From positions 74,107 through 111,081 of the forward strand of contig VFJZ01000035.1 of assembly GCA_009885805.1 (NCBI GenBank): a stretch of DNA of 36,975 bases, in the 5' to 3' direction. This stretch comes from Actinomycetota bacterium. GTDB lineage: Bacteria; Actinomycetota; Thermoleophilia; Gaiellales; F1-60-MAGs149. The position numbers and the translations under genes are program-made. Below, one piece after another: positions 11,593-30,474 of this stretch. Position 1 is the stretch's first letter. Each line of letters opens with the position of its first letter. The notes beneath the pieces are model-generated. The model had not been told where the DNA came from. It searched no databases and worked only from the letters and a program-made list of their open reading frames with translations.

Positions 11593-11603
11593 GATGCGGA
11601 ACC

Positions 11604-12968: not shown

Positions 12969-12975
12969 CCGATAC

Positions 12976-12990
12976 TGTGCATCGTGCACG
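12976..12990 (+). promoter_or_regulatory. Candidate operator TGTGCA-N3-TGCAC at the regulator's own start
   Basis: TGTGCATCGTGCACG: dyad arms matching 5 of 6 around three bases. The GTG start of the regulator (12984) lies inside it. A -10-like TACTGT (12973-12978) is five bases before that GTG, so the site overlaps both promoter and a leaderless start, which suits autoregulation. The same dyad occurs at 23401 and 30543. Confidence 0.6.
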
Positions 12991-14708
12991 CCTCCCGGCC
13001 AGCTTCGGACGCCCTGCTGACGCTGGTACGGCGGATGATCTCGGCGGCCGGCGTCGACGAGGTCCTGGCCGAGGCGGTGCGCCTGATCGCACAGTTGACC
13101 GGCGCTGCAGGGGCGCTCGTCTACCTGCTCGACGAGGACGGCGAGCGGCTCACCGTCCGCGCCGGCGTCGAGGGCTACGAGGATGCTATCGGCCGCTTCT
13201 CTCTCGAGGTCGGCGCCGGCCTCACCGGCTGGACGGCGCTCAACCGCGCGCCCGCGTTCGTCCGCGACAACCCACGCGAGGATCCGCGCTACCTGTACGT
13301 GCCGGAACTGAACGACGAACGGTTCCAGTCGGCGCTCACCTACCCGCTGATCGCGCCGAGTGACCGGCTGGTCGGAGTGGTCACGCTGCACACCGTCGCG
13401 CCGCGCGAGTTCACCGAGGACGACCTCACGCTGGTCGCGCCGATCGCCTCGCTCGTCGCCGCCGCCGTCGAAACGGCGCAGCTGCACGAGGAGCGCCGCC
13501 GGCAACTCGACGCCGTTCGCGCGCTGGCGAAGGCGGTGGGCGATCCCGCCTCCCCGGCCGGGCGCCGCCGCGCGCTGCACGGGCTGGCCGGTGCCGCGCG
13601 CAGCCTGCTGGGCGCCGACGCCGTCCTGGTGGCGACGCGCGACGAGCGGGGCCGCTACGGGCTCGGCGCCGTCGCCGGTGAGTGGAAGCGCGCCGAGCGG
13701 GTAACGGATGCGGCACTGCTCGAACCACTTGCGGCCAGAACGCGGACACTGCGCCGCGCGAGGCACGCGGAGATCCTGGGCGGCGTCGCTGGCGCGACCA
13801 CCGGCGTCGCGATTCCGCTCGCGGCCGGAGGGGAGGCGCTCGGTCTGCTGCTCGCGGCGGGCCGCCAGTCCCCGTCGCCCGCCACCCTCGACGTGCTGCA
13901 GGCGCTCGCGGCGACGGCCGCGCAGGTGCTTCTGAACGCGCGTCTGATCGACCAGGCGGCCGGCCGCAACGCGGAGCGCGATGTCCTCGACGCGCTGGCC
14001 GCCGGCGACGAGCCGGAATCGGTGCTGGCGGCGCGGGCGCGCCGTGTCGGGGTCGACCTCGAACACGCGCACGTGGCGCTGGCGATCGCCGCGGACGAGA
14101 GCGGCCGGGATCCCGAGACGACGCTCGTACGGCTGCGCGAGGAGCTGCTCGGCGCGTTCCCCGGCTCGGCGTGCGCCGTGCGCGGCCTGCAGGCGACCGC
14201 GCTGCTGAGGGCGCGCGACGCGGACGGTCTTACCGACCGTCTCGCGCGCGCCGCGGACGGGCAGGCGGCGATCGGCGTCGGCCGCCCACGCGTCGGCGCC
14301 CTGTCCCAGGCCGACGGCTTCGCAGAGTCAGCGCAGGCGCTGCAGATGGGCCGCGCCGTTCACGGACCCGCCGCCGTCACCCGCTTCGAGGACCTCGGCG
14401 TGCAGCGCTACCTGTGGGCGCTCGCACAGGAGCCGGCGCGTGACGTGTGGCAGGAGCGCCTCGAGCGACTCCGCGCCCACGACGGCGAGCACGGCTCACA
14501 ACTGTTCGAGACCGTCGAGCGCTACCTGGAGTGCGCCGGCAACCGCAAGGACGCGGCGGCCGCCCTGTACGTCCACCGCAACACCCTGCGGCAACGGTTC
14601 GACCGCATCCGCCGCGTCGCCCAGATCGACCTCGACGACCCCTCCGTGCTGTTCGACCTGCAGGTGGCGCTGCGGATCGTGCGTTATCGGCAGGCGGCGG
14701 CTGGCTGA
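12984..14708 (+). CDS. GAF-domain PucR/CdaR-type transcriptional regulator
   Basis: A 574-residue cytosolic regulator. A GAF sensor domain covers about residues 20-165 (GAGLTGWTALNRAPAFVRDN; EFTEDDLTLVAPIASLVAAA), and a second, weaker GAF-like region about 195-320 (GVAIPLAAGGEALGLLLAAG). A CdaR/GGDEF-like middle domain spans about 350-475. The C-terminal PucR helix-turn-helix is at about 511-563 (YLECAGNRKDAAAALYVHRN, then TLRQRFDRIRRV). Proteins of this plan often activate amine, purine or sugar-acid catabolic operons. Its GTG start lies in a TGTGCA-N3-TGCAC dyad that recurs upstream of the BMC and GlxBCD operons, so I infer that it controls both. The ligand is unknown. Confidence 0.88.
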   Translation: MHASRPASDALLTLVRRMISAAGVDEVLAEAVRLIAQLTGAAGALVYLLDEDGERLTVRAGVEGYEDAIGRFSLEVGAGLTGWTALNRAPAFVRDNPREDPRYLYVPELNDERFQSALTYPLIAPSDRLVGVVTLHTVAPREFTEDDLTLVAPIASLVAAAVETAQLHEERRRQLDAVRALAKAVGDPASPAGRRRALHGLAGAARSLLGADAVLVATRDERGRYGLGAVAGEWKRAERVTDAALLEPLAARTRTLRRARHAEILGGVAGATTGVAIPLAAGGEALGLLLAAGRQSPSPATLDVLQALAATAAQVLLNARLIDQAAGRNAERDVLDALAAGDEPESVLAARARRVGVDLEHAHVALAIAADESGRDPETTLVRLREELLGAFPGSACAVRGLQATALLRARDADGLTDRLARAADGQAAIGVGRPRVGALSQADGFAESAQALQMGRAVHGPAAVTRFEDLGVQRYLWALAQEPARDVWQERLERLRAHDGEHGSQLFETVERYLECAGNRKDAAAALYVHRNTLRQRFDRIRRVAQIDLDDPSVLFDLQVALRIVRYRQAAAG

Positions 14709-15384: not shown

Positions 15385-16504
15385 CGGTCTGTACGTGGCG
15401 GCGGCCTGAGTTCGTCCATGCTCGGCGCACGGCGAATCGACGGGCTCAGGGATCCCCAGACCGCAAGGACCAACGCGACGCCGGCGAACGCGGCAACCGT
15501 GACCCGGGAAGACGTCACGCCGAGCAGGACCCCGGCAGCGAGCGGCCCGAATGGCGTGAGAAGGGCGGCGAGCGTCGCCCGCACGCCCTCGACGCGTCCA
15601 ATCAGGTGGGGCGGTCTGATCGCGAGCCGGTAGCCGGTCACGACGGAGTCGGACACCGGGATCAGGAGCCCGCAGGGAATCATCGCGGCGATCAGGACCA
15701 CCGCGCGCGGCTCGGCGACGAACGCGCCGCAGCCGAGCCACGCCCAGAGTTCAAGCAGTAGGTTCGTCCGCGTCGAGAGCCGTCGGCGGACCACCGGCGA
15801 GACGAGTGACCCGACAAGGATCGAAGCGCCGAAGACCGAGAGCAGCAGGCCGATCTCTGCACCCGGCAGCCCGTCACGCCGTGCCTGGACAACGACGATG
15901 AGCAGGAGGGCCGGCCCGAGGAAGTTGCCGAGTGCCCTGAGGAGCGCGCACGTGCGCAGGAAGGCGTTGCGCCAGAGGAACCAGAAGCCGTCGGCGACCT
16001 CCGACCGCAGGCTCGCGCGATCGGTCTCGCGGACACCCTGGAACGGTGTCTTCAAGAGCGTCAGCGAGAGCGCGGAGATCGCGTGGGTGACGGCGTCCAC
16101 GATGAACGGCACCGCACGGCCGATTGCGAACAGGGCGCCACCGATCGGCGGCCCGGCGAGCTGCACTGCCGCGTGTCTCGCCTCCTGGATCCCGGCCGCG
16201 GCGGGCAACTGTGAGCGCGGCACGATCGACTGCAGCACTCCAGCCGCGGCCGGCACCGAAGAACACCCCGCCCGCTCCCTCGACGAAAGCCACAGCTACG
16301 ACGTGCCAGAAGCTGAGCCGGTCGGCGACGAGGGCGACACCGAGGCTGCCGATCGCCGCTGCCCGCGTCAAGTCGGTCGCGATCATCAGGTGCTTCCGGT
16401 TCACGCGATCGACGCCATCTGCGAGCCGCCCGCGGACAGCAGCTGGCCGACCTGCAAGATGACGAAGTCGCGGTTCCGGTGGAGCTGGACAGTGGCCTCG
16501 GCCG
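15381..16504 (-). pseudogene. MFS transporter pseudogene (MFS_3/enterobactin-exporter-like)
   Basis: Three pieces of one major-facilitator protein lie in different frames. The first, from about 16504, reads RNRDFVILQVGQLLSAGGSQ then MASIA-stop, the start of helix 1. It jumps to VDRVNRKHLMIATDLTRAAA in another frame, so about 35-40 residues between helices 1 and 2 are missing. That frame runs to GVFFGAG near 16260, where one extra base (GGTGCCG) shifts the reading into the long last piece (from the GTG at 16256: VPAAAGVLQSIVPRSQLPAA and onward). The last piece has helices 5-12 intact. With a deletion and a frameshift it cannot make a full transporter. It lies just after the BMC operon. Confidence 0.8.
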
Positions 16505-16510
16505 GGGGCG

Positions 16511-17449
16511 TCAACCTCTCGCGAGCGCCTCCTCAAGCTCGGCGCACTTCTGCCGCACCGCCGCCGCCGCCTCTCGCAGCGCCGCCAGCTCGCCCGGCTC
16601 GAGGTCGAGTTCCCGCACCTCCTCGACCCCGCGCCGCGAGAGCACCGCCGGAACGCCGACGAACGCTCCGTCGATGCCGAACTCGCCCCGAAGCCGACAG
16701 CACACCGGATGCAACTCGCGGCGATCCTCGAGGATCGCCCGCACCATCACGGCGGTCGCACTGGCCGGCGCGTAGTAGGCCGAACCCGTGCGCAGCAGCG
16801 CGACGATCTCGGCGCCGCCGGCACGGGTGTGCTCGAAGACGCCGGCGAGTGTCGCCGGATCGAAGATGCGCGTCGCGGGTGTCCCCTCGATCGTCGCGCG
16901 GCCCGGCAGCGGCACCATCGTCTCGCCGTGCGATCCGAGCGTCATCGCTTCGACATCCGGCGGCGCGACCCCGGCGAGATCGGCGAGGAACCAGCGAAGG
17001 CGCGCCGAGTCGAGGCCGCCCGCCATCCCCATCACCCGCCGCTCGTCGAACCCCGAGGTGCGCCAGGCGAGGTGGGTCATCTCGTCGAGCGGGTTGGTGA
17101 CGACGATCAGGATCGCAAACGGCGACTGCGCGGCTGCCTGTGCGACGCAGTCGCGCACGACCGCGGCGTTGACGAGGAGCAGGTCGAGCCGGCTCATCCC
17201 GGGCGCGCGCGGCCGGCCGGCGGTCATCACGATCACGTCGGAGTTGGCGGTGGCGCGGTAGGTCTCGGTGCCCGTCAGGCGCGTGCGGAACCTTTCGATC
17301 GGCGCCGACTGGTTCAGGTCGAGCGCGAGACCGGCGGCGCGTCCCGGGACGACGTCGACCAGCACCACCTCGCGGCAGACGTCCATCTGCGCGATCCGCA
17401 TCGCGGTCGTCGCGCCGACGTTGCCGGCGCCGATCACGGTCACCTTCAC
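16511..17449 (-). CDS. Malate dehydrogenase-like enzyme, last gene of the BMC operon
   Basis: A 312-residue NAD-dependent dehydrogenase of the LDH/MDH superfamily. NAD motif: VIGAGNVGATTAMRIAQ, with Asp in VLVDV selecting NAD. The substrate loop reads TAGRPRAPGMSRLDLLLVN; the arginine in RPRAPGM marks malate rather than lactate specificity. The catalytic motif is LGSHGETMVP and the family motif LDSARLRWFLADL is present. The GTG at 17449 overlaps the BMC-P4 stop (GTGA). In known metabolosomes NADH is usually recycled by an alcohol dehydrogenase. Here oxaloacetate reduction to malate could do that job (inference). There is no N-terminal encapsulation helix, so lumen location is not proven. Confidence 0.88.
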   Translation of the reverse strand: MKVTVIGAGNVGATTAMRIAQMDVCREVVLVDVVPGRAAGLALDLNQSAPIERFRTRLTGTETYRATANSDVIVMTAGRPRAPGMSRLDLLLVNAAVVRDCVAQAAAQSPFAILIVVTNPLDEMTHLAWRTSGFDERRVMGMAGGLDSARLRWFLADLAGVAPPDVEAMTLGSHGETMVPLPGRATIEGTPATRIFDPATLAGVFEHTRAGGAEIVALLRTGSAYYAPASATAVMVRAILEDRRELHPVCCRLRGEFGIDGAFVGVPAVLSRRGVEEVRELDLEPGELAALREAAAAVRQKCAELEEALARG

Positions 17450-17718
17450 GGCGCGGCGTCCCCCGGCGGCGCATCGAGCACCGCGACGATCAGCGACCGG
17501 ATCGGCGCCCGGCCGCCGATCAGCTCCCGCGCGAGACCCGGCGGGCGCGAGACGAGCACGTCGTCGCCGACGCCGGCACCGACGAGGTCGACCGCCAGGA
17601 ACGCCGCGCCGGGCGCGGCGCCGCGACGGTGCGAGCGGAGCGCGAGCAGCGTGCGCCCCTCGTAGGCCGGGTGCTTCACCGCGCCCGTGATGCGACCGAC
17701 GACGCGCGCCGGGATCAC
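17446..17718 (-). CDS. BMC-P shell vertex protein (EutN/CcmL family), fourth copy
   Basis: A 90-residue pentamer-forming shell protein that caps the vertices of the microcompartment. The start VIPARVVGRITGAVKHPAYE, the core AVDLVGAGVGDDVLVSRP and the end IRSLIVAVLD match EutN/CcmL. The G.GVGDDVLV turn is conserved. It has a slightly longer middle loop (SHRRGAAPGAAF) than its neighbours. The GTG start overlaps the preceding TGA by four bases, and its own TGA overlaps the malate dehydrogenase GTG. Confidence 0.9.
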   Translation of the reverse strand: MIPARVVGRITGAVKHPAYEGRTLLALRSHRRGAAPGAAFLAVDLVGAGVGDDVLVSRPPGLARELIGGRAPIRSLIVAVLDAPPGDAAP

Positions 17719-17972
17719 CCCGGATCGACCATCCCGACGACGACCGCGTCGACCGGCTGCGGCGCGTCGAACGCGTCGGCGGCGTCCGCACCGTTCACGA
17801 ACCAGACGCGCGCGCCGGCCGAGGCGCGGACGAGGTGGTCGGCGGCGACGATCGGTCGGCCCGCGTCGGCGCCCGTCTCGTCCACCGGCTGCACGATCGC
17901 AAGGCGGTGTCCGGCGAGTTCCGCCACGCGCCGCGTGCAGGTGACGGTGCCGGTGACACGCCCGAGGTTCAC
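17715..17972 (-). CDS. BMC-P shell vertex protein, third and divergent copy
   Basis: An 85-residue EutN/CcmL protein: NLGRVTGTVTCTRRVAELAG, LAIVQPVDETG and QPVDAVVVGMVD are all typical. The central loop differs from the family: VAADHLVRASAGARVWFVNG replaces the usual VAVD..GAG.GD.VLV. That loop faces the pentamer pore, so this copy may make a different vertex pore or a heteropentamer. GTGA overlaps on both sides. Confidence 0.88.
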   Translation of the reverse strand: MNLGRVTGTVTCTRRVAELAGHRLAIVQPVDETGADAGRPIVAADHLVRASAGARVWFVNGADAADAFDAPQPVDAVVVGMVDPG

Positions 17973-18238
17973 GGCGCAAGCTCCACGCGGTCGACGATCC
18001 CGATCACGAGCGCGTCGATCGGCTGCGTGCGGGTCGCCTCCGTCAGGCGGGCGGCGGAACCGATCGCGACCAGCACCGTGTCGCCCTGCCCGGCGCCGAT
18101 CGTGTCGGCGACGACGTGCTGCTCGGCGCGCTCCGTGCCATCCGGGTCGACCTCGACGACGAGCAGGAGCTTCGCGCCGTCGAGGCGCCGATCCTTGGTC
18201 GAGGAGACGATCCGGTCGATGACGCGGCAGAGGATCAC
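17969..18238 (-). CDS. BMC-P shell vertex protein, second copy
   Basis: An 89-residue EutN/CcmL protein and the closest of the four to the standard family. It reads VILCRVIDRIVSSTKDRRLD, LLLVVEVDPDGTE, VVADTIGAGQGDTVLVAIGS and PIDALVIGIVD. It has the full pore turn GAGQGDTVLV. The GTG start overlaps the TGA of the first copy by four bases. Confidence 0.92.
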   Translation of the reverse strand: MILCRVIDRIVSSTKDRRLDGAKLLLVVEVDPDGTERAEQHVVADTIGAGQGDTVLVAIGSAARLTEATRTQPIDALVIGIVDRVELAP

Positions 18239-18468
18239 AGCAGCGCCACCACCGCCAGGTCGACCGGGACGCGTCCGACACCCTCGACCATCCGCGCCGC
18301 CGCCGCGCTCGTCGTCACGACCAGCTGCCCCTGCGCCGCGCCGAGCGTGTCGACGGCGACGTAGCGCCTGCCGTCGCCGACCGTCTCCAGGAGATCGAAC
18401 CGGAACGGATCGAGCCCGTCCGCGCGGCGGGCGCAGTCGACCCGACCGATGACGCGGGCGAGCAGCAT
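18235..18468 (-). CDS. BMC-P shell vertex protein, first and shortest copy
   Basis: A 77-residue EutN/CcmL protein beginning MLLARVIGRVDCARRADGLD, with core VAVDTLGAAQGQLVVTTS and ending VPVDLAVVALL. It lacks the extra C-terminal residues after the last strand that its three neighbours carry. Its ATG overlaps the stop of the EutQ-N-like gene by one base of the TGA (ATGA), and its TGA overlaps the next GTG. Confidence 0.88.
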   Translation of the reverse strand: MLLARVIGRVDCARRADGLDPFRFDLLETVGDGRRYVAVDTLGAAQGQLVVTTSAAAARMVEGVGRVPVDLAVVALL

Positions 18469-18731
18469 CAGGCGCCCACCAGCTCGACGCCCTTCTCACG
18501 GGCGGTGTCGCGCGCGAGCGGCGTGACGACGGCTCCCGGCGCGAGCGCGATGCGACCCGCGCCGATAGCGGCAACGACGTCGTGCTCGGTCACCAGGTGC
18601 GCTGGACACTCGGTCCGTGGGCCAGCGGCGATCGGTGAAAGAATGGGATCTGATCCCTTTCTTTCACCGAGTTCCTGCAACACCCGCAGCACGATCCTCA
18701 CGACCAGCTCGATGTCCACATCGCGCGTCAC
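18468..18731 (-). CDS. Small BMC-associated protein: amphipathic helix plus EutQ-N/EutT-N-like motif
   Basis: An 87-residue protein. Residues 5-21 (VDIELVVRIVLRVLQEL) form an amphipathic helix of the kind that targets cargo into BMC shells. Residues 46-84 read LVTEHDVVAAIGAGRIALAP, then GAVVTPLARDTAREKGVEL. From memory this pattern (IT..DI..A...G......A.ITP.ARE.A...G) is found at the N-terminus of EutQ and of EutT. The same pattern occurs in the larger protein at 22060-22914. The stretch between helix and motif is encoded by an inverted repeat (18632-18670). The GTG start overlaps the aldehyde dehydrogenase TGA. The function is unknown; a cargo adaptor or lumen organiser is plausible. Confidence 0.78.
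   Translation of the reverse strand: MTRDVDIELVVRIVLRVLQELGERKGSDPILSPIAAGPRTECPAHLVTEHDVVAAIGAGRIALAPGAVVTPLARDTAREKGVELVGA
18632..18670. repeat. 18-bp inverted repeat inside a coding sequence
   Basis: Left arm 18632-18649 and right arm 18653-18670 pair at 17 of 18 positions around CTG. The core is GGGAT-CTG-ATCCC with GGTGAAAGAA flanks. It encodes GERKGSDPILSPI of the 87-residue protein, exactly the linker between its two recognisable parts. It looks like an in-frame REP-type insertion. Confidence 0.75.
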
Positions 18732-20122
18732 CTGATGCGGGCCACGCGCCGCGCCTGCGCGAAGTGGCGCGGCGAGGTGATGCCCTCGCCGGTGACGGTG
18801 CCGATCGCAAACCCCGGGTAGCCCTCGCCCTCCGCGCCGAGCCCGCGCAGCGAGCAGCCGTTGACAACCGTGACCACCGTCGACACCTCCCGCGCGAAAC
18901 GCTCGACATTCGGCGGGTGGTTCGAGTAGATCATCGCGGTGTGGCGGTTGCCACCCTCGGCCTCGATGCCGAGATCGATCGCCGCCGCCGAGTCGCGCAC
19001 GCGCACGACGGGGAGGAACGGACAGAACTTCTCCATCCAGAACAGCGGATGATCGCGCTCGACCGGCGCCACGAGCAGACCGACCGGCTTGCGCGCGTCG
19101 ATCCCGGCGGCGGCCAGCAGCACCTCGGCGTCGCGGCCGACGAACTCCCGGCGCGTGCGCGGCGCGGCGCCACTCGAATCGATCACCGCCCGGTAGACCT
19201 CCTCGACCTGGGACGGTGAGAGGACGAGCGTCGGCAGCTCCGCGAACGCCTCGATCAGCTGCGCGTAGACGCTCTCGGCCGCGACGACCGCCTTCTCGCC
19301 GATGCAGAGGATGGTGTTGTCGAAGACGGCGCCCTTGAAGATCTCGCTTGCCGCCCAGCGTGGGTCGGCCGTCTCGTCGACGACGGCGACCGGCATCCCC
19401 GGCCCGGCGGCGACGACGCGCTTGCCCGTCCCGAACGCGTCGCGCACGAGCTCGGCGCCGCCCGTGATGCAGAGCATGTCGACGCCCGGATGCGTGACGA
19501 GCGCCCGCGCCGTCTCCAGCGACGGTGCCGTCACACCGGTCATCAGGTTGTCGGGGCCACCGGCGGCGACGACCGCCTGGTTCATCAGCTCGACCGTCCG
19601 CATCGAGGTGCGGGCGCAGCCCGGGTGGGCGTTGAAGGCGACGGCGTTGCCGCCCGCGATCATCGTGATGCCGTGGTTGATCATGAACGCCGACGGCGAG
19701 TTCGTCGGCGTCACGCTCGCGACGACGCCCCACGGCAGCCAGTCCTCGATCGTCAGCCCATGCTCACCGGCGAACGCCGCCGGCCGCTCGAAGTCCTCGA
19801 CCCCGACCGACACGTTCGCCGCCAGCTGGTTCTTGGCCACCTTGTCGCGGACGCGCCCGAGGCCCGTCTCGTCGTGCGCCATCTGTGCGAGCGACTCGGC
19901 GTGCTCGTTCCCGCAACGGCGGATCGCGTCGATCGCCCGCCGACGCAACTCGACGCCGCCACGCGCGAGCGCCCGCTGCGCGGACCGGGCGGCGCCGACC
20001 GCGTCGTCGACGGAGGCGAACAGGCCGTTGCGACCGTCCGCCGCCGGCGCAGCGACGGCCGGCGACAGCTCCGCGACGACGCGGCTGACGATCGCCGCGA
20101 GCTCGGCCTCCGAGATCGCCAT
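18728..20122 (-). CDS. CoA-acylating aldehyde dehydrogenase of the microcompartment (EutE/PduP family)
   Basis: A 464-residue enzyme converting an aldehyde with NAD and CoA to acyl-CoA and NADH. Family marks are LPWGVVASVTPTNSPSAFMI (129-148), MIAGGNAVAFNAHPGCA, the loop ITGGAELVRDAF, and catalytic Cys273 in FDNTILCIGEK. The end GITSPRHFAQARR is as in EutE. Residues 3-21 (ISEAELAAIVSRVVAELSP), followed by an Ala/Pro linker, are a classic encapsulation helix, so the enzyme is almost surely lumen cargo. It is the signature enzyme of the metabolosome. The aldehyde is unknown; C2 or C3 is the default for this family. Six bases separate its ATG from the BMC-H stop. Confidence 0.94.
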   Translation of the reverse strand: MAISEAELAAIVSRVVAELSPAVAAPAADGRNGLFASVDDAVGAARSAQRALARGGVELRRRAIDAIRRCGNEHAESLAQMAHDETGLGRVRDKVAKNQLAANVSVGVEDFERPAAFAGEHGLTIEDWLPWGVVASVTPTNSPSAFMINHGITMIAGGNAVAFNAHPGCARTSMRTVELMNQAVVAAGGPDNLMTGVTAPSLETARALVTHPGVDMLCITGGAELVRDAFGTGKRVVAAGPGMPVAVVDETADPRWAASEIFKGAVFDNTILCIGEKAVVAAESVYAQLIEAFAELPTLVLSPSQVEEVYRAVIDSSGAAPRTRREFVGRDAEVLLAAAGIDARKPVGLLVAPVERDHPLFWMEKFCPFLPVVRVRDSAAAIDLGIEAEGGNRHTAMIYSNHPPNVERFAREVSTVVTVVNGCSLRGLGAEGEGYPGFAIGTVTGEGITSPRHFAQARRVARIR

Positions 20123-20127: not shown

Positions 20128-20427
20128 CTACTTCGCCGCCTTGCTCGCGCCGATCGGCAGCGTCGCTCCGAGCGACTCGTGCGGCTTCGCGATCACGTGC
20201 ACCGCCATCACTTCCGAGATACGCGCCGCCGCGGCAGCGCCCGCATCGGTTGCGGCCTTCACGGCGGCGACGTCGCCGCGGACGATCGCCGTGACCAGGC
20301 CGCCGCCGATCGACTCGTACCCGACGAGCTCGACGTTCGCGGCCTTGATCATCGCGTCGCCGGCCTCGACGGCAGCGACGTAGCCCTTCGTCTCGACGAG
20401 GCCGACGGCATCGGTTGGGTTCGCCAT
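20128..20427 (-). CDS. BMC-H shell hexamer protein, second copy (PduA/CcmK/EutM family)
   Basis: A 99-residue shell protein that forms the hexameric tiles of the facets. It reads [20 protein letters not shown], the pore segment [20 protein letters not shown] and the end [12 protein letters not shown]. The edge lysine (ETKG) that packs hexamers side by side is present. The pore motif SIGGG differs from KIGAG in the other copy, so the two tiles probably pass different molecules. A short C-terminal tail ([13 protein letters not shown]) is extra. A strong AAAAGGAG ribosome-binding sequence precedes it, unlike the overlap-coupled genes, which fits the high copy number of hexamers. Confidence 0.95.
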
Positions 20428-20451: not shown

Positions 20452-20721
20452 TCAGGCCATCTTCGCGGTGGTGGCCGCGTCGGGGCTGGGAATGACGGTG
20501 ACCGCGACGACCTCGCCGACGCGGCGGGCGGCGGCGGCACCGGCGTCGACCGCTGCCTTGACGGCACCGACATCGCCGCGCACCGAGATCGAGACGATGC
20601 CCGCCCCGATCTTGCCGTACGAGCCGGCCGTGACGTCGGCCGCCTTCAGCATCGCGTCCGCCGCCTCGACGACTGCCGCGAATCCCTTCGTCTCGATCAT
20701 GCCGAGTGATTGCTGTGCCAT
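20452..20721 (-). CDS. BMC-H shell hexamer protein, first copy
   Basis: An 89-residue BMC-H protein: [20 protein letters not shown], pore segment [20 protein letters not shown], and the terminal [20 protein letters not shown]. The pore motif KIGAG is near the PduA/EutM consensus KIGSG. Edge lysine and the arginine after the pore strand are conserved. Its ATG is preceded by a purine-rich AGGGGAG. It lies 19 bases after the ligase stop. No BMC-T (tandem-domain) gene is seen in the operon. Confidence 0.95.
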
Positions 20722-20740: not shown

Positions 20741-22060
20741 TCAGTAGATCTCGAGGTACTCGGTGCGTTCCCAGTCGGTGACGTGATCTTCGAACCGCTG
20801 GAGCTCGTAGCGGCGCACCGTCAGCCAGATGTCGCAGAACTCGTCGCCGAGCAGCTCCCGGATCGGCTCGGCGCGCTCGAAGTGGTCGAGCGCCTCGCGC
20901 ATGTCGTACGGCAGCTGCTCGTACTTCGGGTCGTCCTCGGCCGGCCCCGGCCCCGAGGGTGGCATCAGCTCGAGCCCCTCGCGGATCCCGAGCAGGCCCG
21001 CCGCCATCACGCCCGCGGCGACGATGTACGGGTTCGAGAGGCCGGACGCGCCGCGCTGCTCGACGTGCCGCGACGATGCCGACCCGCCCTTGATCCGGAT
21101 CAGCGCCGAGCGATCCTCGTGACCCCAGGAGATGTTCGACGGCGCGAACGTGTGCGGTCGGCGGCGCTTCAGGCAGTTGACGGTCGGCACGAGCAGCGTG
21201 TAGATCGCCTTCGCGTACTTCAGGTTGCCGGCGATGAAGGCCTTCGCGGCCTCCGAGAGCCCATGCTCGGCGGTGTCGTCAGCCATCACCGAGGCGCCGG
21301 CGGCGTCGAGCAGCGAGATGTGGAAGTGCGCGCCACACCCGGCGAGGCCGTTGAAGGGCTTGGACATGAACGTCCCGATCAGACCGTGCTTGTGCGCGAT
21401 CTCCTTGACGGCGTTCTTGTAGGTGTAGCTCTTGTCCGGGCCGGCGAGGCCATCGCCGGGGCCGAAGTTCAGCTCGAACTGACCGGGCCCGTATTCCGAG
21501 TTCGCGGTGATCAGGTCGACACCCACCTTCGGGAGCTGCTCGAACAGGTCGAGCACGACCGGGTGGAAGACGTTGAAGACGGGGTTGAAGATGTGGTGGC
21601 CGCCGAACAGCGGCGTGCCGTCGGGGTTGAGGAAGTAGTTCTCGTACTCCATCCCCGTGCGCATGCCGTAGCCCATGGCCTTCGCCTCGGCGAGCACCTT
21701 GTCGAGCAGCTGCCGCGGCGACGCCAGCCGCGGCGTGCCGTCAACGGACTCGGCGGAGCAGATGAAACGCGCGTGGCCGGGCTGCCATGGGATGCTCTGG
21801 GCCGTCGTCGGGTCCGGCCGGAGCAGCTGGTCGGCGTACGAGTACTCGGTGTTGTAGCCGGACCCAGGCACGACGTCGGAGCGCGAGTCGAGCACCTGCG
21901 CGCCGCCGTACATGTTCAGGCCGTCCTCCGCGTACTGGTACGCGGCCTGCAGCGGCACGAGCTTGACCCGCGCCGTGCCGTGGATGTCGGGCAGCTCGAA
22001 GCGGACCCAGGAGATGTCCTTGGCCTGCCAGTCGTCGAGGATCTCGACAACGGTCTTCAT
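20741..22060 (-). CDS. Glutamine-synthetase-like gamma-glutamylamide ligase (GmaS/PuuA/GlnT type)
   Basis: A 439-residue member of the glutamine synthetase superfamily, which joins glutamate to ammonia or an amine using ATP. Metal and substrate residues are present: E138/E140 in [10 protein letters not shown]189 and E196 in [14 protein letters not shown]245/H247 in [10 protein letters not shown], arginines in [12 protein letters not shown] and EDRSALIRI, and E334/R336 in [16 protein letters not shown]. The GlnA adenylylation tyrosine loop is absent, and the substrate loop (GCGAHFHIS) differs from ammonia-using GlnA (NGMH.H.S). I therefore infer that it glutamylates an amine. The ATG at 22060 shares ATGA with the previous stop. 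A GS-like enzyme inside a BMC operon is unusual. Confidence 0.9.
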
Positions 22061-22914
22061 CACGGCACGAGCTCCAGTCGATCGTCGAGGGTGTGCCAGG
22101 GAATCATGCGGTCGATCCATGCCTGCATGCGGTCGGCGGCGAGCATCAGGTGCTCGCAGAGCTGCCGGAACTCGTCGTGGCTGGCCGCGCCGGTGCGCTC
22201 GCAGAACGTCTGGACGTCGCCGAGCAGCTCGATCGAGTCGACCAGGTGCCACTTCGAGAGGCGGATCGCGTGCCGGCCGCAGAGCGAGCCGAGCAGCTCG
22301 TTCAGCGCGGACAGCGGGATCGACTGTGCCTTCGCCTTGTCGCGCAGCGTCTGGATCTCCTCGCCGAGCCAGAACAGGTTGAAGCAGGCGTAGAAGATGC
22401 CGGGCATGCGGCCCATCGGCGGGCGCGAGAGCTGGCGGAGGCGGCGGACCTCGTTCGGCTCGGAGCGCCAGACGAGGTCGGTGAAACGGTCGAGGCGCTC
22501 GATCAGTTCCGCCGTCGAGCCGGCGACGGGGCGGTCCTTGCGCGTGTAGACGGCGGGCTGCATGCAGCCCCCGCAGTGCGTGCAGTAGTCGGAGCCCGAC
22601 TGCCGTTCGTGTCGATGGGCCGCGGGCGGCTGGCTGGCCGGCGTCCCGCCGACGACGATCTCGACGCCAGCCGTCTCGGCCTCTTCGCGGGCCAGGTCGG
22701 TGATGATCGCGCCGGCCGGCGCATGTAGCGCGAGGCCGGCCGCGGCGGCGCGTTGGACGTCCTCGCGGGTGACGACGCGGCCGGTCACCTGCGCCCGTTG
22801 GGCCGCGGGCGGCGGCGCCGGGGAGGGCGGCGCCGGCGAGCCCGTGGGCCGCTGCTCGGCGAGCGCCTGCTGGACGAGGGCGACGATGCGGGCGGTGAGG
22901 TCGGCGTCGCTCAT
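22060..22914 (-). CDS. Unrecognised BMC-associated protein with EutT-like layout
   Basis: A 284-residue protein that I cannot place in a characterised family. Residues 3-21 (DADLTARIVALVQQALAEQ) form an amphipathic helix followed by a Pro-rich linker (SPAPPSPAPPP), the usual cargo-targeting arrangement. Residues 47-88 carry VVTREDVQRAAAAGLALHAP and GAIITDLAREEAETAGVEI, the EutQ-N/EutT-N-like motif. Then comes H100/H102 followed by C111-x2-C114-x2-C117 (YCTHCGGCMQP). From about 130 on it is helical, ending WHTLDDRLELVP. EutT, as I remember it, has the same order (motif, H-x11-CC-x2-C, helical domain), but no B12-dependent enzyme is in the window. It starts two bases from the DUF3830 stop. Confidence 0.8.
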   Translation of the reverse strand: MSDADLTARIVALVQQALAEQRPTGSPAPPSPAPPPAAQRAQVTGRVVTREDVQRAAAAGLALHAPAGAIITDLAREEAETAGVEIVVGGTPASQPPAAHRHERQSGSDYCTHCGGCMQPAVYTRKDRPVAGSTAELIERLDRFTDLVWRSEPNEVRRLRQLSRPPMGRMPGIFYACFNLFWLGEEIQTLRDKAKAQSIPLSALNELLGSLCGRHAIRLSKWHLVDSIELLGDVQTFCERTGAASHDEFRQLCEHLMLAADRMQAWIDRMIPWHTLDDRLELVP

Positions 22915-22915: not shown

Positions 22916-23299
22916 TCAGGACTCCCGCATCTGGACGGGGATCGAGCCGACGGAGAGGATCTCGCGACCCCACTGCTTGAGCGTGTCGAGCCCCTCGGTG
23001 ACCTTCGCGAACACCGATACCTCGCCGAACGGCTCGGTGTCGCCGTAGAAGATGCAGATCGTCTGGCGGCCCGGGTAGTAGCCGATGTCGCCGGGCTGGA
23101 CGGCGAAGATCTCGTTCTCCGGCTCGCAGAAGAACGGCACCATCACGATCAACTCGTCGCCGGCGAACTTGGCATGGACGGAGAAGCTCTCGCACGGAAG
23201 GTGCTCGCAGAAGGCGCGCGTGACGTTCGGCGCCTCCCGCTCGAGCAGGGTCGCGACGACGCGCTGATTGCCGGACAGGATCTCGAACGATCTCCCCAC
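22916..23299 (-). CDS. DUF3830-family protein, first gene of the BMC operon
   Basis: A 127-residue cyclophilin-like beta-barrel protein. It reads TLLEREAPNVTRAFCEHLPC, VHAKFAGDELIVMVPFF, GDIGYYPGRQTICIFYGDTEPFG-type core (split here as GDIGYYPGRQTICIF and YGDTEPFG) and VFAKVTEGLDTLKQWGREIL. In my memory DUF3830 genes sit next to amidohydrolases and amine or pyrimidine catabolic genes, and their function is unknown. The GTG start has a GGGAG sequence 6 to 10 bases before it. The promoter region upstream contains TAGGAT and a TGTGCA-N3-TGCACA dyad. Being first in the operon, it may bind the substrate or control uptake; that is speculation. Confidence 0.82.
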   Translation of the reverse strand: MGRSFEILSGNQRVVATLLEREAPNVTRAFCEHLPCESFSVHAKFAGDELIVMVPFFCEPENEIFAVQPGDIGYYPGRQTICIFYGDTEPFGEVSVFAKVTEGLDTLKQWGREILSVGSIPVQMRES

Positions 23300-23422: not shown

Positions 23423-23818
23423 TCAGCCGACGCGGACGAGGCCGGGCACGAGGTCGAAGCCCGGGTCGAAGGACAGGACACGATCGACGCCGTGGCGCCG
23501 CATCACCGCGACGTGGAGGGCGTCGCGAGCGGACAGCGACCAGCGGGCGAGCAACTCGTCGCGCGCGGCCGTCACGTCATCGACGCCCACCGGCAGGACC
23601 TCGTCGACGACCCCGAGGAGGAGATCGAACGCCGGTTGGATGGCGGCCGGGCGATCGATCGCCCGGTAGCGATGGAGGATCTCCTGCAGGACCTCGGCGT
23701 CGGTGACGAGGCGCTCACGGACGAGGCTGAGACGCTCGAGGTGCCGCTGCGCATCGACCTTGTGCCGGTGCGGCTCGCCGATCAGGTACATCGGCACGTT
23801 GGAGTCGACGAAGATCAT
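23423..23818 (-). CDS. VapC-type PIN-domain toxin, catalytic acids intact
   Basis: A 131-residue PIN ribonuclease. All four acids are visible: D5 ([12 protein letters not shown]), E in [10 protein letters not shown] in [11 protein letters not shown] and D in LSFDPGFD. It would cleave RNA when freed from its antitoxin. The ATG at 23818 overlaps the antitoxin TGA (ATGA). It lies directly upstream of the BMC operon promoter, on the same strand. Confidence 0.9.
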
Positions 23819-24066
23819 TCCCCGGGCGCGTAGCCGCTCTCGATCTCGGCGAGCATCTGCTCGATGTCGGGCGCGGGGAACGAGTGCCCGGCGGCGGCCC
23901 GGATCAGCGCGATGCGGGCGTCGGGATCGCCGGTGCCGGTCCGGCTCGCGCAGTCCCGCAGTGCCCGCCGTACCCACTCCGACAGGTTCACGCCGTCGGC
24001 GTCGGCGGCGAGGCGGAAGGCCGCGATCTCGGCCTCGTCCAGGACGACCTGCAGGCGCGTACTCAT
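23815..24066 (-). CDS. Ribbon-helix-helix antitoxin of the second VapBC pair
   Basis: An 83-residue protein with an N-terminal RHH fold ([37 protein letters not shown]) and an acidic C-terminal tail ([18 protein letters not shown]) that would occupy the toxin groove. The ATG at 24066 is chosen because TATACT stands exactly six bases before it and no ribosome-binding site is needed. A dyad, ACTCAT-TCC-ATGAGT, overlaps the start codon, the expected place for autorepression. Confidence 0.86.
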
Positions 24067-24078
24067 GGAATGAGTATA
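24061..24078 (-). promoter_or_regulatory. Leaderless promoter and operator of the second vapBC pair
   Basis: Minus strand: TATACT (24078-24073), six bases, then the ATG at 24066. The dyad ACTCAT-TCC-ATGAGT (24075-24061) overlaps both the box and the start codon. The AT-rich block stands out in a GC-rich region. Confidence 0.65.
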
Positions 24079-24083
24079 CCATA

Positions 24084-25430
24084 CTACTGACGGCCGGTGA
24101 TGCGATTCGCGACCGCCGCCAGCCGGGACGGGCGGCCGGTCTGCGCCTCGCGGCGGTCGGCGGCGCGGTAGGCGGCAAAGAGGCCGTTCACGCCGAGGAA
24201 GCGCAGCGGCTCCGGCTCCCAGTCGCGCCGCCACGTGTGGCCGACGAAGGGAAGCGTCGTGATGTCCGACTGCTCGCCGCGGACGAGGTCGGCGACGATG
24301 CGTCCACCGAGGTTCGCGGCGGCGACGCCGACGCCGACGTAGCCGCCCGACCAGGCGATGCCCTGGTCGCAGTCGACGCCGACAGCGAAGCGCCAGTCGC
24401 GCGGCACGCCGAGGACGCCTGACCAGCCATGCGCGATCGGCACCTCGCGTGCCTGTGGGAAGAGCGCATGCAGTCGGCGTGTCAGCCCGTCGACCGTCGC
24501 GGGAGCGATCTCGCCGTGGCGGTCGGTGCCGGACCGGAACCGGTACGGCACGCCGCGGCCGCCGATCGCGATGCGGTCGTCGGCGGTGCGCTGGATGTAG
24601 ACGTAGGCGTTCGCCATGTCGCGGATCGTCTCGGCCGCGTCCCAGCCGATCGCGGCCATCGCCTCGGGCGGCAGCGGGTCGGTCACGATCATCGACGAGT
24701 TCATCGGCAGGATCCGGCGACGCAAGCCTTGCAGCGACGCGGTGTAGCCCTCGGTCGCGCGGACGATCCACGGCGCGCGCACGTCGCCCTGGTCGGCGCG
24801 CACGACGCCGGGCAGGATCTCACGCACGGTCGTGCGCTCCCAGATCGTCACGCCGAGCCGCTCGACGGCGTCGGCGAGCCCGCGCGCGAGCGCCGCCGGC
24901 TGGACGCGCGCGCAGTGCGGCGTCCGCACGGCCGCGAGGGCGCCGTCGAGCCTGATCCGCTCGGTGAGGTCGTGGCCCTCGAGCCACCGCGAGTCCTCCT
25001 CGCCGTCACCCTCGTCGCGGCGGTGCTGGAGGTAGCTGCGGAGGCGCTCCTTCTCGACCGGGTTCGTCGCGACGCTCAGCGACCCACCCTTGAGGAAGTC
25101 GCAGGCGATGTTCTCGGCGGCGCAGACGCGCCCGACCTCGTCGATCGTGTCGTAGACGGCGAGGCGCGTGCGGCGGTCGGCGGCGAAGGCGATCTCGCCG
25201 GTGACCCAGCCGCCGTTTCGGCCCGACGCGCCGTAGCCGGCGACCTCGCGTTCGAGGATCGCGACCCGCAGCGACGGGTCGGCGCGCTTCAGGTAGTACG
25301 CCGTCCACAGTCCCGTGTAGCCGGCGCCGACGATCGCGACGTCCACCTCGGCGGAGCCGGGCAGCGACGGGCGCGGGCCCGGCAGTCCGCCGAGCGCGTG
25401 GAACCAGTAGGACGGGCCGCCGATCAGCAC
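24084..25430 (-). CDS. FAD-dependent amine oxidase (DAO fold, PuuB/OrdL-like)
   Basis: A 448-residue flavoprotein of the D-amino-acid-oxidase fold. It shows the FAD motif [19 protein letters not shown] (residues 29-47) and the PuuB/OrdL signature [13 protein letters not shown] (about 68-80). It also has the mid-domain [20 protein letters not shown] and the C-terminal [19 protein letters not shown] second FAD segment. Relatives oxidise gamma-glutamylputrescine, sarcosine or N-methyl amino acids, giving an aldehyde or imine. Placed near a GS-like ligase and a BMC aldehyde dehydrogenase, it is the best candidate to make the aldehyde, for example from an N-alkylglutamate (inference). The GTG start is seven bases after a TAGCAT box, so it has its own leaderless promoter. 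Confidence 0.88.
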
Positions 25431-25593: not shown

Positions 25594-26184
25594 TCACGCG
25601 CCGACCGCGAGGTCGATCGCGCGCGGCTCGCCGCCGGAGATCGGGTTCAGATCCATCGGGCACGAGGAGACGACGATGACCTGGTCGACGAGCGCCTCGA
25701 CGATGAACGCATCACCCGCGCGCGCGGGTGAGGTTCCCCACTCGAGCCGGCCGTCGGCGTCCCAGGGGATGTTCATGAACAGGTTGAAGGGTGCGGGCAC
25801 CTCGTCGCGGGCGAGGCCGAGCTCCGCGATCGCCTCGCGGTAGTTGTCGCAGCAGGTGCGGTGCGGGCCTGTGACGCCGTACTCGCGGTAGCGGGCGGCG
25901 TCGCAGGCGGCGATCAGCGTGTCGTGGACACCCGGGCTCGTGTCCTCGGTGACGAGCAGGATCGGGCGGCGCAGGTTCGACCAGAGCTGATCGCCGGCCG
26001 TCGGCACGAGGTGCTTGATCGCGGCGCGGGTGTGGTGCATCGAGAGCACCTCCGCGCCCGGCTCGACGAGCGACCAGAAGTCGACGACCTGGCCGCCGAG
26101 CGTGTTGACGACGGCGAGCCGCTCGCCCTTTGGGAGGCGGACGGCCTTGCCGTGCGAGCCCTCTACCGTGATGCGCTTGGTCAT
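25594..26184 (-). CDS. DUF1989 protein (urea-carboxylase-associated family)
   Basis: A 196-residue protein of the family named urea-amidolyase-associated protein. It reads GKAVRLPKGERLAVVNTLGG, QVVDFWSLV, MHHTRAAIKHLVPTAGDQLW and HRTCCDNYREAIAELGL, and includes VPAPFNLFMNIPWDADGRLE and the end VVSSCPMDLNPISGG. Paired members act as carboxyguanidine deiminase in guanidine-using bacteria (from memory). Here there is only one and no urea carboxylase, so a different amine or ammonia-yielding step is likely. The ATG at 26184 is preferred over one seven codons upstream because a TAGGAT box lies eight bases before it. Its promoter overlaps that of the divergent CHRD gene. Confidence 0.85.
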   Translation of the reverse strand: MTKRITVEGSHGKAVRLPKGERLAVVNTLGGQVVDFWSLVEPGAEVLSMHHTRAAIKHLVPTAGDQLWSNLRRPILLVTEDTSPGVHDTLIAACDAARYREYGVTGPHRTCCDNYREAIAELGLARDEVPAPFNLFMNIPWDADGRLEWGTSPARAGDAFIVEALVDQVIVVSSCPMDLNPISGGEPRAIDLAVGA

Positions 26185-26189
26185 GGCGC

Positions 26190-26218
26190 TTGATCCTACC
26201 GGCATCGCGACCTACCCT
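26190..26218 (+). promoter_or_regulatory. Divergent overlapping promoters for the CHRD and DUF1989 genes
   Basis: Plus strand: TTGATC (26190-26195), 17 bases, TACCCT (26213-26218), well placed for the CHRD gene at 26245. Minus strand: TAGGAT (26198-26193), eight bases before the DUF1989 ATG at 26184. The two promoters overlap, so the genes may interfere or be jointly controlled. Confidence 0.5.
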
Positions 26219-27485: not shown

Positions 27486-28892
27486 CTAGTGACCGCCCTC
27501 GACGTCGCTCGTCGGCAGGTGCCCGGCACCGTCGTTGTGCATCCGGTGCGCCCACGGCGCGCCGAACGCGGCATCGGTGCCGACCAGGGGGATACCGGTG
27601 ATCATCGACGCCTCCAGGGTGAGGGCTCGGAGATCCTCCGGTTCGAGGTCGTGGACGTCCTGCTTGCCGCACGCACGCGCGAACATCTGGCACTCCAGCG
27701 TCAGCGCGTTGAGGAAGTTCTCCACCCGCTCCGCCGCGACCTCGACCGGGAGCCGCTCGATCAGCCGCTCGTCCTGGGTCGTGATCCCGACCGGGCACTG
27801 GCCGGTGTGACAGTGCGCGCAGTGACCAGGCTCCGTGCCGAGCGCGTGGTAGTCCTCGATGTAGCGGGCGCTGTTGCAACCGAGTGCGATCATCGCCGCC
27901 GAGCCGACGCCGACCGCGTCCGCGCCGAGCGCGAGCGCCTTCGCGACGTCGGCGCCGTTCTTGATCCCGCCTTGCAGCACGATCTGCACCTCGCCGAGCA
28001 GGCCCAGGTCCTCCAGCGCCCGCCGCGCCTCGCAGATCGCCGCCATCGTCGGGATGCCGGTGTGGTCGTAGAGGATGTCGGGCGTCGCCGCCGAGCCTCC
28101 CTCCATGCCGTCGATCACGATCACGTCGGCGCCGGCCTTCGCCGCCAACTTGACGTCGTCGCGCGTGCGGGCGGCGCCGATCTTGACGTAGACCGGGATC
28201 TGCCAGTCGGTCGCCTCGCGGATCTGCTCGATCTTCAGCCGCAGGTCCGCCGGTCCGATGAAATCCGGGTGCCGCACCGGCGAGCGCTGGTCGACGCCGA
28301 GCGGCAGGTCGCGCATCCGCGCCACCTCGTCCGACACCTTCGCGCCGAGCAGCACGCCGCCGGTGCCCGGCTTCGCGCCCTGGCCGACGACGATCTCGAC
28401 CGCATCGGCGCTCGCCATGTCGTGCGCGCTGTTGCCGTAGTGGCTCGGGCAGATCTGGTAGATCAGGTGCTCGGAGTTCTCCCGCTCCAGCGGATGCATG
28501 CCGCCGTCGCCCGTCGTCGTCGACGTGCCCGCCCGCGTCGCGCCGAGGCCAATGCCGGCCTTCGCGTTGCGCGATAGCGCCCCGAACGACATGCCGACGA
28601 CGCAGATTGGAATCTTCAGCCTGACGGGGCGCTCCGCAAAGCGGGTCCCGAGGACGGTCTCCGTCACGCACCGCTCGCGATACCCCTCGAGGGGCACGCG
28701 CGACAGGGTGCACGGCAGGAACGTCAGGTCGTCCATGTTCGGGACGGGCCTCGTCGTCGACATGCCGCGATAGCGGTAGCGCCCGAGTTCGGCCTTGAGT
28801 TGGATGTCCTGGATCACGTCGGGCGTCCAGACGGCGTGCTGGTGCAGCCAGCGCCGGAAGTCGACCGCCTCGCCGTTCCCGTGATCGGTCAC
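27486..28892 (-). CDS. FMN-binding glutamate-synthase-like subunit (GlxD/MgsC type)
   Basis: A 468-residue protein equal to the central FMN domain of glutamate synthase. It has PICVVGMSFGALSRNAKAGI, then GATRAGTSTTTGDGGMHP, QGAKPGTGGVLLGAKVSDEV and VIDGMEGGSAATPDILYDHT. The iron-sulfur segment reads CAHCHTGQCPVGITTQD with its cysteines in place. As separate small genes the three GltB domains form GlxBCD or N-methylglutamate synthase MgsABC, which transfers an amine to glutamate. The GTG overlaps the stop of the GXGXG gene (GTGA). A partner role for the BMC ligase is inferred. Confidence 0.9.
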   Translation of the reverse strand: MTDHGNGEAVDFRRWLHQHAVWTPDVIQDIQLKAELGRYRYRGMSTTRPVPNMDDLTFLPCTLSRVPLEGYRERCVTETVLGTRFAERPVRLKIPICVVGMSFGALSRNAKAGIGLGATRAGTSTTTGDGGMHPLERENSEHLIYQICPSHYGNSAHDMASADAVEIVVGQGAKPGTGGVLLGAKVSDEVARMRDLPLGVDQRSPVRHPDFIGPADLRLKIEQIREATDWQIPVYVKIGAARTRDDVKLAAKAGADVIVIDGMEGGSAATPDILYDHTGIPTMAAICEARRALEDLGLLGEVQIVLQGGIKNGADVAKALALGADAVGVGSAAMIALGCNSARYIEDYHALGTEPGHCAHCHTGQCPVGITTQDERLIERLPVEVAAERVENFLNALTLECQMFARACGKQDVHDLEPEDLRALTLEASMITGIPLVGTDAAFGAPWAHRMHNDGAGHLPTSDVEGGH

Positions 28893-29581
28893 ATCGCCTC
28901 CCGCCAGATGGCGAACTCGCGCTTGTCGAAGTTGTGCAGGCGCCCGCCGGAGCCGAGCTTCGTCCAGGCCCGCTTCGGGCCGAGACCGTGCGGGTCGCAG
29001 AGCTCGTGGAGTAACCGCTCGTCGGCGTCGGTCAGATCCCTGACGACGCAGTCCGAACCCGGCTCCCCGATCGAGCCGCCGACGTAGATGTCCCCCGCGT
29101 ACATGGAATCGCCGATGCCGTCGTCGACGTCGCCGCAGACGACGAGGACGCCCTTCTGGAACATGAACCCGCTCATGTAGCCGGCATCGCCGCCGACGAC
29201 GACCGTCCCGCCCTTGCCGGCGATCCCCGCGCGGGTACCGACGGAGCCCTTCACGACGACGCTCCCGCCCTTCATCGACGCGCCGACGTTCGTGCCGGCG
29301 CCGCCGTGGACGACGACGGAGCCGGCGTGCATGTCGGCGCCGACCGACCAGCCCGCATCGCCTTCGACCTCGAACCGCGCGCCGTCGCCGAGCGTGCAGC
29401 AGAGGTAGCCGACGGAGCCGGCGAAGCGGATCAACACCGGCTCGAAGATGGCAACGCCGAGGCAGTGACGCGCGCCCGGGTGCAGCACGCGGATCTCGGC
29501 CGCGCCCTCCGCCGCGAGCCGCTTCAGCTCGCGATTCACCTCGCGGGTCGTCTGGCCGGCACAGTCGACTACAGCGTCCAC
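28889..29581 (-). CDS. GXGXG-domain glutamate-synthase-like subunit (GlxC/MgsB type)
   Basis: A 230-residue protein made of the right-handed beta-helix domain of glutamate synthase. It has repeated turns GSVVVHGGAGTNVGASMKGG, GSVVVKGSVGTRAGIAGKGG, GTVVVGGDAGYMSGFMFQKG and GVLVVCGDVDDGIGDSMYAG. The N-terminus (DCAGQTTREVNRELKRLAAE) is as in GlxC. It would hold the amidotransferase and FMN subunits together. The GTG start at 29581 lies 13 bases inside the upstream gene. Confidence 0.9.
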   Translation of the reverse strand: MDAVVDCAGQTTREVNRELKRLAAEGAAEIRVLHPGARHCLGVAIFEPVLIRFAGSVGYLCCTLGDGARFEVEGDAGWSVGADMHAGSVVVHGGAGTNVGASMKGGSVVVKGSVGTRAGIAGKGGTVVVGGDAGYMSGFMFQKGVLVVCGDVDDGIGDSMYAGDIYVGGSIGEPGSDCVVRDLTDADERLLHELCDPHGLGPKRAWTKLGSGGRLHNFDKREFAIWREAM

Positions 29582-30474
29582 ATTACGGCCCTCCCGACGC
29601 CCAGTTCGCGGAACGACGCGTCCTCGGCGGCGTCGCCGAACGCCTCGTGGACGGCGATCGGCTCGGAGGCGACCGCGACCCAGTCGTCCGTCTCGGCGAT
29701 GATCCCCGGCATCGATCCGACCCGGTCACGGCACATGCCGAGGCCGTCGGCAGTCGCGAGCAGGTACGAGAAGGAGCCGTCGAGATCGGCGATCGACGCC
29801 TCCATCGCCTCCTGGATCGTCGCGCCCTCCTCGAGCCGGTGCGCCAGGTACAGCGCGAGGAGTTCGGAGTCGTTGCCCGTGAAGAAACGGTGCCCGCGCA
29901 TCTCGTAGAGGCGACGCAGCTTGTGGTAGTTCGTGATGTGCCCGTTGTGGACGACGCAGATGTCGGCGAACGGCCGCGCCCAGAACGGGTGGGCGTGCTG
30001 GACGTCGACCCGCGACTCGGTCGCGAGGCGCGTGTGGCCGACGCCGTGTCGGCCAGGCGACCCGGCCAGCCCGTAGGCCCGCGCGAGTTCCGTGCCGTCC
30101 ATGACGTGCTTGTAGATCTGCAGCGAACGCCCGACGGAGAAGACCTCGACCGTCGCGTCGGCGCCCTCGACCTCGCGGCAGATGTCGGCGACCGCGACGG
30201 CGCCGTCGACGCGGAACCGCAGGACGCCCGAGTCGAAGTCGAACTCGTCGATGTCATAGGCGGCGCGCGCCCGGTCGCGCGCGGCGTCGGCCGCCGCCGC
30301 ATCGTCGCCGCACCAGACGCGGACGGTGACATGCCCGTTCGTCGCCGGCTCGTAGAGACCGAGGCCCGTCGAGTCGGGGCCGCGTGTGCGAAGGCCCGTC
30401 AGCATCCGTCCGAGCACCTCCGAGGCGACCGGGCCGTCGGCGCGCTTGGCGAGGAATCCCGCGATACCGCACAT
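29569..30474 (-). CDS. Class II glutamine amidotransferase subunit (GlxB/MgsA type)
   Basis: A 301-residue protein with the N-terminal nucleophile cysteine exposed after Met removal (MCGIAGFLAKRADGPV). It carries LRTRGPDSTGLGLY, GVGHTRLATESRVDVQHAHP, FADICVVHNGHITNYHKLRR and TGNDSELLALYLAHRLEEG, the standard class II amidotransferase pattern. It releases ammonia, or in the Mgs type an amine, from glutamine or a glutamylamide. It is the first gene of the three-gene operon. A TAGGCT box is eight bases before the ATG, and the TGTGCA-type dyad lies 67 bases above that box. Confidence 0.92.
   Translation of the reverse strand: MCGIAGFLAKRADGPVASEVLGRMLTGLRTRGPDSTGLGLYEPATNGHVTVRVWCGDDAAAADAARDRARAAYDIDEFDFDSGVLRFRVDGAVAVADICREVEGADATVEVFSVGRSLQIYKHVMDGTELARAYGLAGSPGRHGVGHTRLATESRVDVQHAHPFWARPFADICVVHNGHITNYHKLRRLYEMRGHRFFTGNDSELLALYLAHRLEEGATIQEAMEASIADLDGSFSYLLATADGLGMCRDRVGSMPGIIAETDDWVAVASEPIAVHEAFGDAAEDASFRELGVGRAVMWTL

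Follow-up and report, generated by a model that had tools for sequence, protein, structure and literature searches.

A candidate Pictet-Spenglerase-type protein pair, predicted to be lumen-targeted, in a bacterial microcompartment locus of an actinobacterium

Which enzyme makes the aldehyde in a microcompartment that encodes an aldehyde dehydrogenase and no recognised enzyme to feed it? Many metabolosomes are of this kind, and the 2021 catalogue of bacterial microcompartments (BMCs) lists such types as open cases (PMC8217296). The question arises for the DNA analysed here, a stretch of 36,975 nucleotides from a genome of the Actinomycetota, order Gaiellales (the window), where a gene for a 284-residue protein (P0001, 22060..22914, minus strand, as are all the window genes given below unless stated otherwise) lies in a shell-gene locus. 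An open frame on the plus strand at these positions is ruled out by an in-frame stop.

On one side, P0001 is followed by a glutamine-synthetase-family ligase resembling gamma-glutamylamide synthetases (20741..22060, Gln-synt_C 2.5e-80), which fell below the cutoff for all NCBIfam equivalogs of glutamine synthetase, two BMC-H shell proteins (20452..20721, PF00936 2.7e-26, and 20128..20427, PF00936 4e-26), a EutE-type CoA-acylating aldehyde dehydrogenase with an N-terminal helix (18728..20122, PRK15398 with 484.8 bits against a cutoff of 403), and a cluster of BMC-P (EutN/CcmL) vertex proteins (17446..18238, PF03319 1.8e-19 for 17715-18035), of which ORF 17969-18238 matches BMC-P genes in three related loci (L008-L010). 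Next to the cluster is a lactate/malate dehydrogenase-like protein (16511..17437), a possible recycler of NAD+, with a homologue in a second BMC locus of the same genome. On the other side there are an FAD amine oxidase of the DAO family (24084..25430, PF01266 4.8e-59), a DUF1989 protein (25594..26205, PF09347 1.6e-41) and a trio that resembles N-methylglutamate synthase (MgsABC), namely a GltB2-like FMN domain protein (MgsC-like, 27486..28892, PF01645 1e-93), a GXGXG protein (MgsB-like, 28889..29581, PF01493 1.6e-10) and a class-II glutamine amidotransferase-like protein (MgsA-like, 29569..30474, PF13522 5.5e-18). A GAF/PucR-type regulator (12984..14708, plus strand) has counterparts by homology among the regulators of L008 and L027. 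Two further observations were made by eye. Between the FAD oxidase gene and the DUF3830 gene (see below), at 23423-24090, there are short ORFs of PIN-like and ribbon-helix-helix-like type that may be a toxin-antitoxin pair, and upstream of the locus (33992-36975) there are biotin carboxylase and carboxyltransferase genes of the acyl-CoA carboxylase type, which might handle a C3 acyl-CoA product.

This gene set is not restricted to the window. L008 again has the GS-like gene, the MgsABC-like trio, shell genes, a DUF3830 gene, a gene for the helical domain described below and a PucR-type regulator, and L009, L010 and L027 share much of this set. The aldehyde dehydrogenase is also among the genes that recur in related loci, and the locus L007/L027 additionally carries PduL and acetate kinase. 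L008 has, about 6 kb from its BMC genes, a gene of the PuuD-like gamma-glutamyl-GABA hydrolase family (16345-17142, plus strand), which is consistent with gamma-glutamylated intermediates. The second BMC locus of the window's own genome (L039, contig C28 80000-97200, at 4356-13947) contains a GATase/GXGXG/GltB2 trio, a GS-like ligase, BMC-P, BMC-H, an acylating aldehyde dehydrogenase, a BMC-T-like protein and malate dehydrogenase. Its Octopine_DH-family protein (PF02317, 2e-30) has an N-terminal extension resembling two encapsulation helices, and a cargo of the opine-dehydrogenase type would fit an amine/opine theme.

A preliminary description of P0001 had read an encapsulation helix, a Pro-rich linker, a motif like the N-terminal part of EutQ and EutT, an H-x10-C-x2-C-x2-C segment and a helical domain from the sequence, and all of these are present in the translation and in the AlphaFold2 model, the His/Cys motif being exactly as written (H100-x10-C111-x2-C114-x2-C117, 22564..22617). 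In this model, built on a shallow alignment (mean pLDDT 77.9), a helix at residues 3-21 (22852..22908) is followed by a disordered linker (22-37), a small alpha/beta unit like that of the EutT/EutQ N-terminus (50-88; the motif spans residues 45-90, 22645..22782), a low-confidence stretch with the Cys segment (91-122) and a confidently modelled helical domain (134-279). The N-terminal helix is a probable encapsulation peptide. Its amphipathicity, measured as hydrophobic moment, was moderately above that of shuffles of its own residues (p = 0.022), and by the same measure the helix of the nearest homologue was not above its shuffles. Among the proteins tested, cargo-type N-terminal helices were found in P0001, the aldehyde dehydrogenase and ORF 18468-18731, and not in the oxidase or the GS-like protein, a distribution that is a weak argument because some others, e.g., the GXGXG protein, come out as amphipathic too. 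P0001 alone had no Pfam or NCBIfam match above cutoff, nothing meaningful among PDB sequences and no match to plasmids. With its place in a shell-gene locus, the protein remains, as a prediction, the candidate BMC cargo outside named families that had been proposed, and it would be targeted to the lumen.

The order of its parts had been likened to that of EutT, the corrinoid adenosyltransferase, in which an N-terminal module and a His/Cys segment also stand ahead of a helical domain. The likeness rises above chance for the N-terminal part only. The EutT profile aligns with residues 61-139 of P0001 (E 0.0011, probability 20.6), more weakly than the match of residues 3-87 to ORF 18468-18731, a stand-alone 87-residue copy of the module (39% identity over 85 aa, E 1e-12) that likewise carries helix, linker and EutQ/EutT-N motif. 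We attribute the EutT-like order to this common BMC N-terminal module having been joined to a different domain. Since the weak EutT match reaches into the Cys segment, a common origin of the N-terminal region of P0001 with EutT is possible. The helical domains are, by contrast, unrelated by profile and by fold: the profile of the BMC helical domains compared with four EutT sequences gave a probability of 0.9 over 21 columns, and the comparison with Cucumopine_C one of 95.8 (E 7e-9). The spacing also differs, H-x10-C-x2-C-x2-C in P0001 and H-x11-CC-x2-C in EutT, with E. coli EutT showing the canonical form. PF01923 (Cob_adeno_trans), which E. coli EutT matches at 9.6e-13, was not matched by P0001.

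The window had been described as lacking a B12-dependent enzyme, and indeed no EutBC or PduCDE genes were seen in it. This does not extend to the genome, where EutB was absent in a genome-wide search and a diol-dehydratase large subunit, as well as a separate PduO-type adenosyltransferase, were found on contigs other than that of the window. The B12-dependent large subunit and an adjoining reactivase-like gene are located on contig C28 (L034, about 9176-12376, minus strand), at a distance of about 17 kb from the second BMC locus. The alternative that P0001 is itself a corrinoid adenosyltransferase of divergent EutT type, or a relative of EutT whose metal site has changed, could draw on this diol dehydratase and on the alignment of the N-terminal module and Cys segment. 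Against it stand the profile comparison of the C-terminal domain, the lack of a PF01923 match, the separate PduO-type enzyme and the fold matches listed, which include no adenosyltransferase. EutT membership of the main domain was accordingly rejected on the profile comparison and the KslB/McbB fold matches, and we regard this alternative as largely refuted and hardly credible. P0001 is, as the preliminary description had suspected, predicted not to be a B12 adenosyltransferase, its helical domain belonging to another family. A common N-terminal targeting module can give unrelated cargo a EutT-like appearance.

By profile and fold comparison, the C-terminal domain of P0001 (residues 133-284, 22063..22518) is a divergent member of Cucumopine_C, the domain that forms the helical half in bacterial Pictet-Spenglerases such as McbB and KslB. 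A search of genomes with the profile of the BMC family retrieved blind two proteins, L015 (E 8.8e-6) and L016 (E 2.2e-4), that Pfam assigns to Cucumopine_C (PF18631) at 2e-38 and 2.6e-39, respectively. When the five BMC domains were aligned by hhalign with six Cucumopine_C proteins from outside BMCs, the probability was 95.8 and the E value 7e-9 over 143 columns. The top 12 Foldseek matches of the P0001 model in the PDB were all KslB or McbB, with probability 1.00 and modest E values (0.008-0.14). P0001 itself is below the Pfam gathering cutoff for PF18631, and a short homologue (L004) covered nearly the whole model at E 0.05 (14.2 bits, cutoff 27). A profile built on no more than the five BMC members found neither McbB nor KslB among PDB sequences. 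The match to McbB obtained with a further profile (A2) is partly circular, because A2 contains two Cucumopine_C proteins, and we have put the weight on the blind detection of L015 and L016, on hhalign and on Foldseek. The new job that had been suggested for the fold is right in so far as it is not B12 adenosylation, and wrong in that the fold is of the Cucumopine_C/Pictet-Spenglerase type and not that of EutT.

The other half of such enzymes is cyclophilin-like, and it is encoded directly upstream of P0001, after a 1-nt spacer, by a DUF3830 gene (22916..23299, Pfam DUF3830 1.5e-13). We found no paper naming DUF3830. The model of this protein resembles KslB with TM up to 0.84 (Foldseek), and an hhalign comparison of the DUF3830 proteins of the BMC loci with those that accompany Cucumopine_C proteins outside BMCs gave a probability of 98.7 (E 3e-16). 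Each of the five BMC loci encodes the two halves side by side, and so do L015, L016, L019, L021 (Sodalis) and L022 (Sinorhizobium). Of the nine pairs outside the window, seven have genes that overlap by 1-4 nt, and in L016 and L019 a gap of about 50 nt separates them. In Nonomuraea the halves are fused in one protein of 314 aa, homologous to McbB 3x27 (E 9.8e-96). Fold, homology and conserved pairing identify the DUF3830 protein as the cyclophilin-like half and P0001 as the helical half, and we predict that the two form one complex, with DUF3830 as the catalytic half. The catalytic residue of McbB is Glu97, within a YG..TE motif. In 3x27 a Glu is found at chain position E118, which fits this number with an offset of 21 residues. 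All members of the non-BMC set have the Glu of the corresponding YG-x-T-E-P motif in DUF3830. The window and L007 have it too, and in L002-L004 it is replaced by Q, Q and K; the DUF3830 core residues are strongly conserved. The replacement in the short homologues indicates that the classical catalysis of the family may have been lost in part of it.

The lack of this Glu in the short homologues, and the fact that the N-terminal module is also encoded as a separate small protein, would suit a non-catalytic lumen scaffold or shell-cargo adaptor, an inactive DUF3830/helical pair that organises the aldehyde dehydrogenase core. We consider such a role unlikely, as the Glu is kept in the window and L007, the DUF3830 core residues are strongly conserved and homologous pairs also exist outside BMCs.

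The domain is rare, with representatives in four of 129 genomes of the window's order and in two of 396 genomes drawn from the phylum; a search of another 26 genomes, from the class to which G486 belongs, found none. The nearest relative of P0001 (L007, from the MAG nzgw114, the same DNA as L017/G486) is 57% identical overall and 62% over its best segment; the Cys segment is retained in it (HVHGRQSGSDFCTHCGGC) and the EutQ/EutT-N-like motif is lacking. In L002-L004, from three genomes of the same order as the window, the protein is a version of 158 aa, the helical domain alone, without the N-terminal targeting module and with 35-38% identity to P0001. All five members, P0001 included, are found in BMC loci. 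Two other candidates, L005 and L006 (E about 1e-4), were rejected as spurious matches to other proteins.

A metal- or Fe-S-binding lumen protein had been offered as an example of the new function, and the signature H..QSGSD(Y/F)CTHCGGCM is indeed invariant in both long forms, P0001 and L007. The segment is absent in the shorter BMC homologues L002-L004. Two of the five BMC members have it, as against none of the six Cucumopine_C proteins from outside BMCs, and it is thus not the core function of the family. The suggestion may hold for the Cys segment, a candidate metal site, and not for the family's core: at most the segment would serve the long form as an accessory site for a metal or for redox chemistry. 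That P0001 has its main job in this segment, as a lumen metal or Fe-S redox protein, is very unlikely given this distribution and a Cys count of just three. In L007, a PduL-type phosphotransacylase gene (10533-11309, plus strand) overlaps the end of the P0001 homologue, and its product starts with a Cys-rich lead sequence that contains an N-terminal CPDCTVC segment.

What would the pair do inside a shell? Cucumopine synthase, McbB and KslB bring together the amino group of an amino acid and a carbonyl compound as an imine, followed by ring closure (PMC7024544, PMC12513458). The chemistry of the fold, the amine-catabolic neighbours and the cargo-type helices make the pair the best candidate for the missing aldehyde-yielding step in the lumen, in which an amine-carbonyl adduct would be cleaved or rearranged. 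The N-terminal helix and EutQ/EutT-N-like module would bring P0001, and through it the DUF3830 partner, into the lumen. As the neighbouring genes suggest, the GS-family ligase may couple an amine to glutamate, the MgsABC-like trio may carry out a transfer to an N-substituted glutamate and the FAD oxidase may provide an oxidation. Inside the shell, the pair may then form a nitrogen-carbonyl adduct or, as seems more likely here, split one, and splitting would deliver an aldehyde in the lumen to the acylating aldehyde dehydrogenase. Both the reaction and the encapsulation of the pair are inferred. We favour, with slightly better than even odds (about 0.55), the reading that P0001 and the DUF3830 protein are a split, lumen-targeted Pictet-Spenglerase-like enzyme that works on an amine-carbonyl adduct, in a BMC for the degradation of amines. 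The organelle would probably handle the joining or splitting of amine and aldehyde, a step new for such shells. A more specific proposal, which we put forward tentatively and with more doubt than confidence, is a new kind of metabolosome with this split complex as its aldehyde-releasing signature enzyme, cleaving an N-substituted glutamate or opine-like adduct.

The direction of the reaction is where a biosynthetic or protective Pictet-Spenglerase would differ, in that it would use an amino acid or amine to trap surplus aldehyde rather than release aldehyde. All characterised members of the fold catalyse the forward condensation (KslB structure titles; PMC7024544; PMC12513458), and even so we find this quite unlikely here, because the neighbours are catabolic and secondary-metabolite genes were not seen in the operon. 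Should the split Pictet-Spenglerase-like reading be true, a cryptic BMC type would gain a testable signature enzyme and substrate class, and Pictet-Spenglerase-type chemistry would enter catabolism. A literature search for texts that mention microcompartments together with cucumopine, Pictet-Spengler or N-methylglutamate terms gave nothing relevant.

Several known systems resemble parts of this one. The N-methylglutamate pathway (GMAS, MgsABC) has, like the window, a GS-family ligase and three split glutamate-synthase-like proteins. It uses a four-subunit N-methylglutamate dehydrogenase (MgdABCD), none of which was seen in the window, where an FAD oxidase and an acylating aldehyde dehydrogenase in a BMC are found instead. 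The RMM (Rhodococcus/Mycobacterium) and other incomplete-core metabolosomes (PMC4207490, PMC8217296) share with the window an aldehyde dehydrogenase without a recognised signature enzyme, and to these the window adds the GS-like and MgsABC-like set and the DUF3830/Cucumopine_C pair; glutamine synthetase is absent from the main text of both BMC surveys. The non-BMC modules of Sodalis (L021), Sinorhizobium (L022), L015, L016 and L019 have the same two halves in adjacent, mostly overlapping genes and, unlike the window, are without the targeting module and the Cys motif; no homologue of the window's shell genes was found around L015 and L016. Finally, in the Cucumopine_C enzymes KslB (PDB 9ns6, 9k0a) and McbB (3x27), the helical and cyclophilin-like domains match the window pair by fold and profile, but they are joined in one protein, whereas the window has two separate genes and adds the N-terminal BMC-targeting module, the Cys segment and a setting among amine-catabolic genes in a microcompartment locus. 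A fold familiar from the synthesis of alkaloids and opines is here paired, recurrent and apparently targeted to the lumen of a shell, beside a glutamate-based amine pathway.
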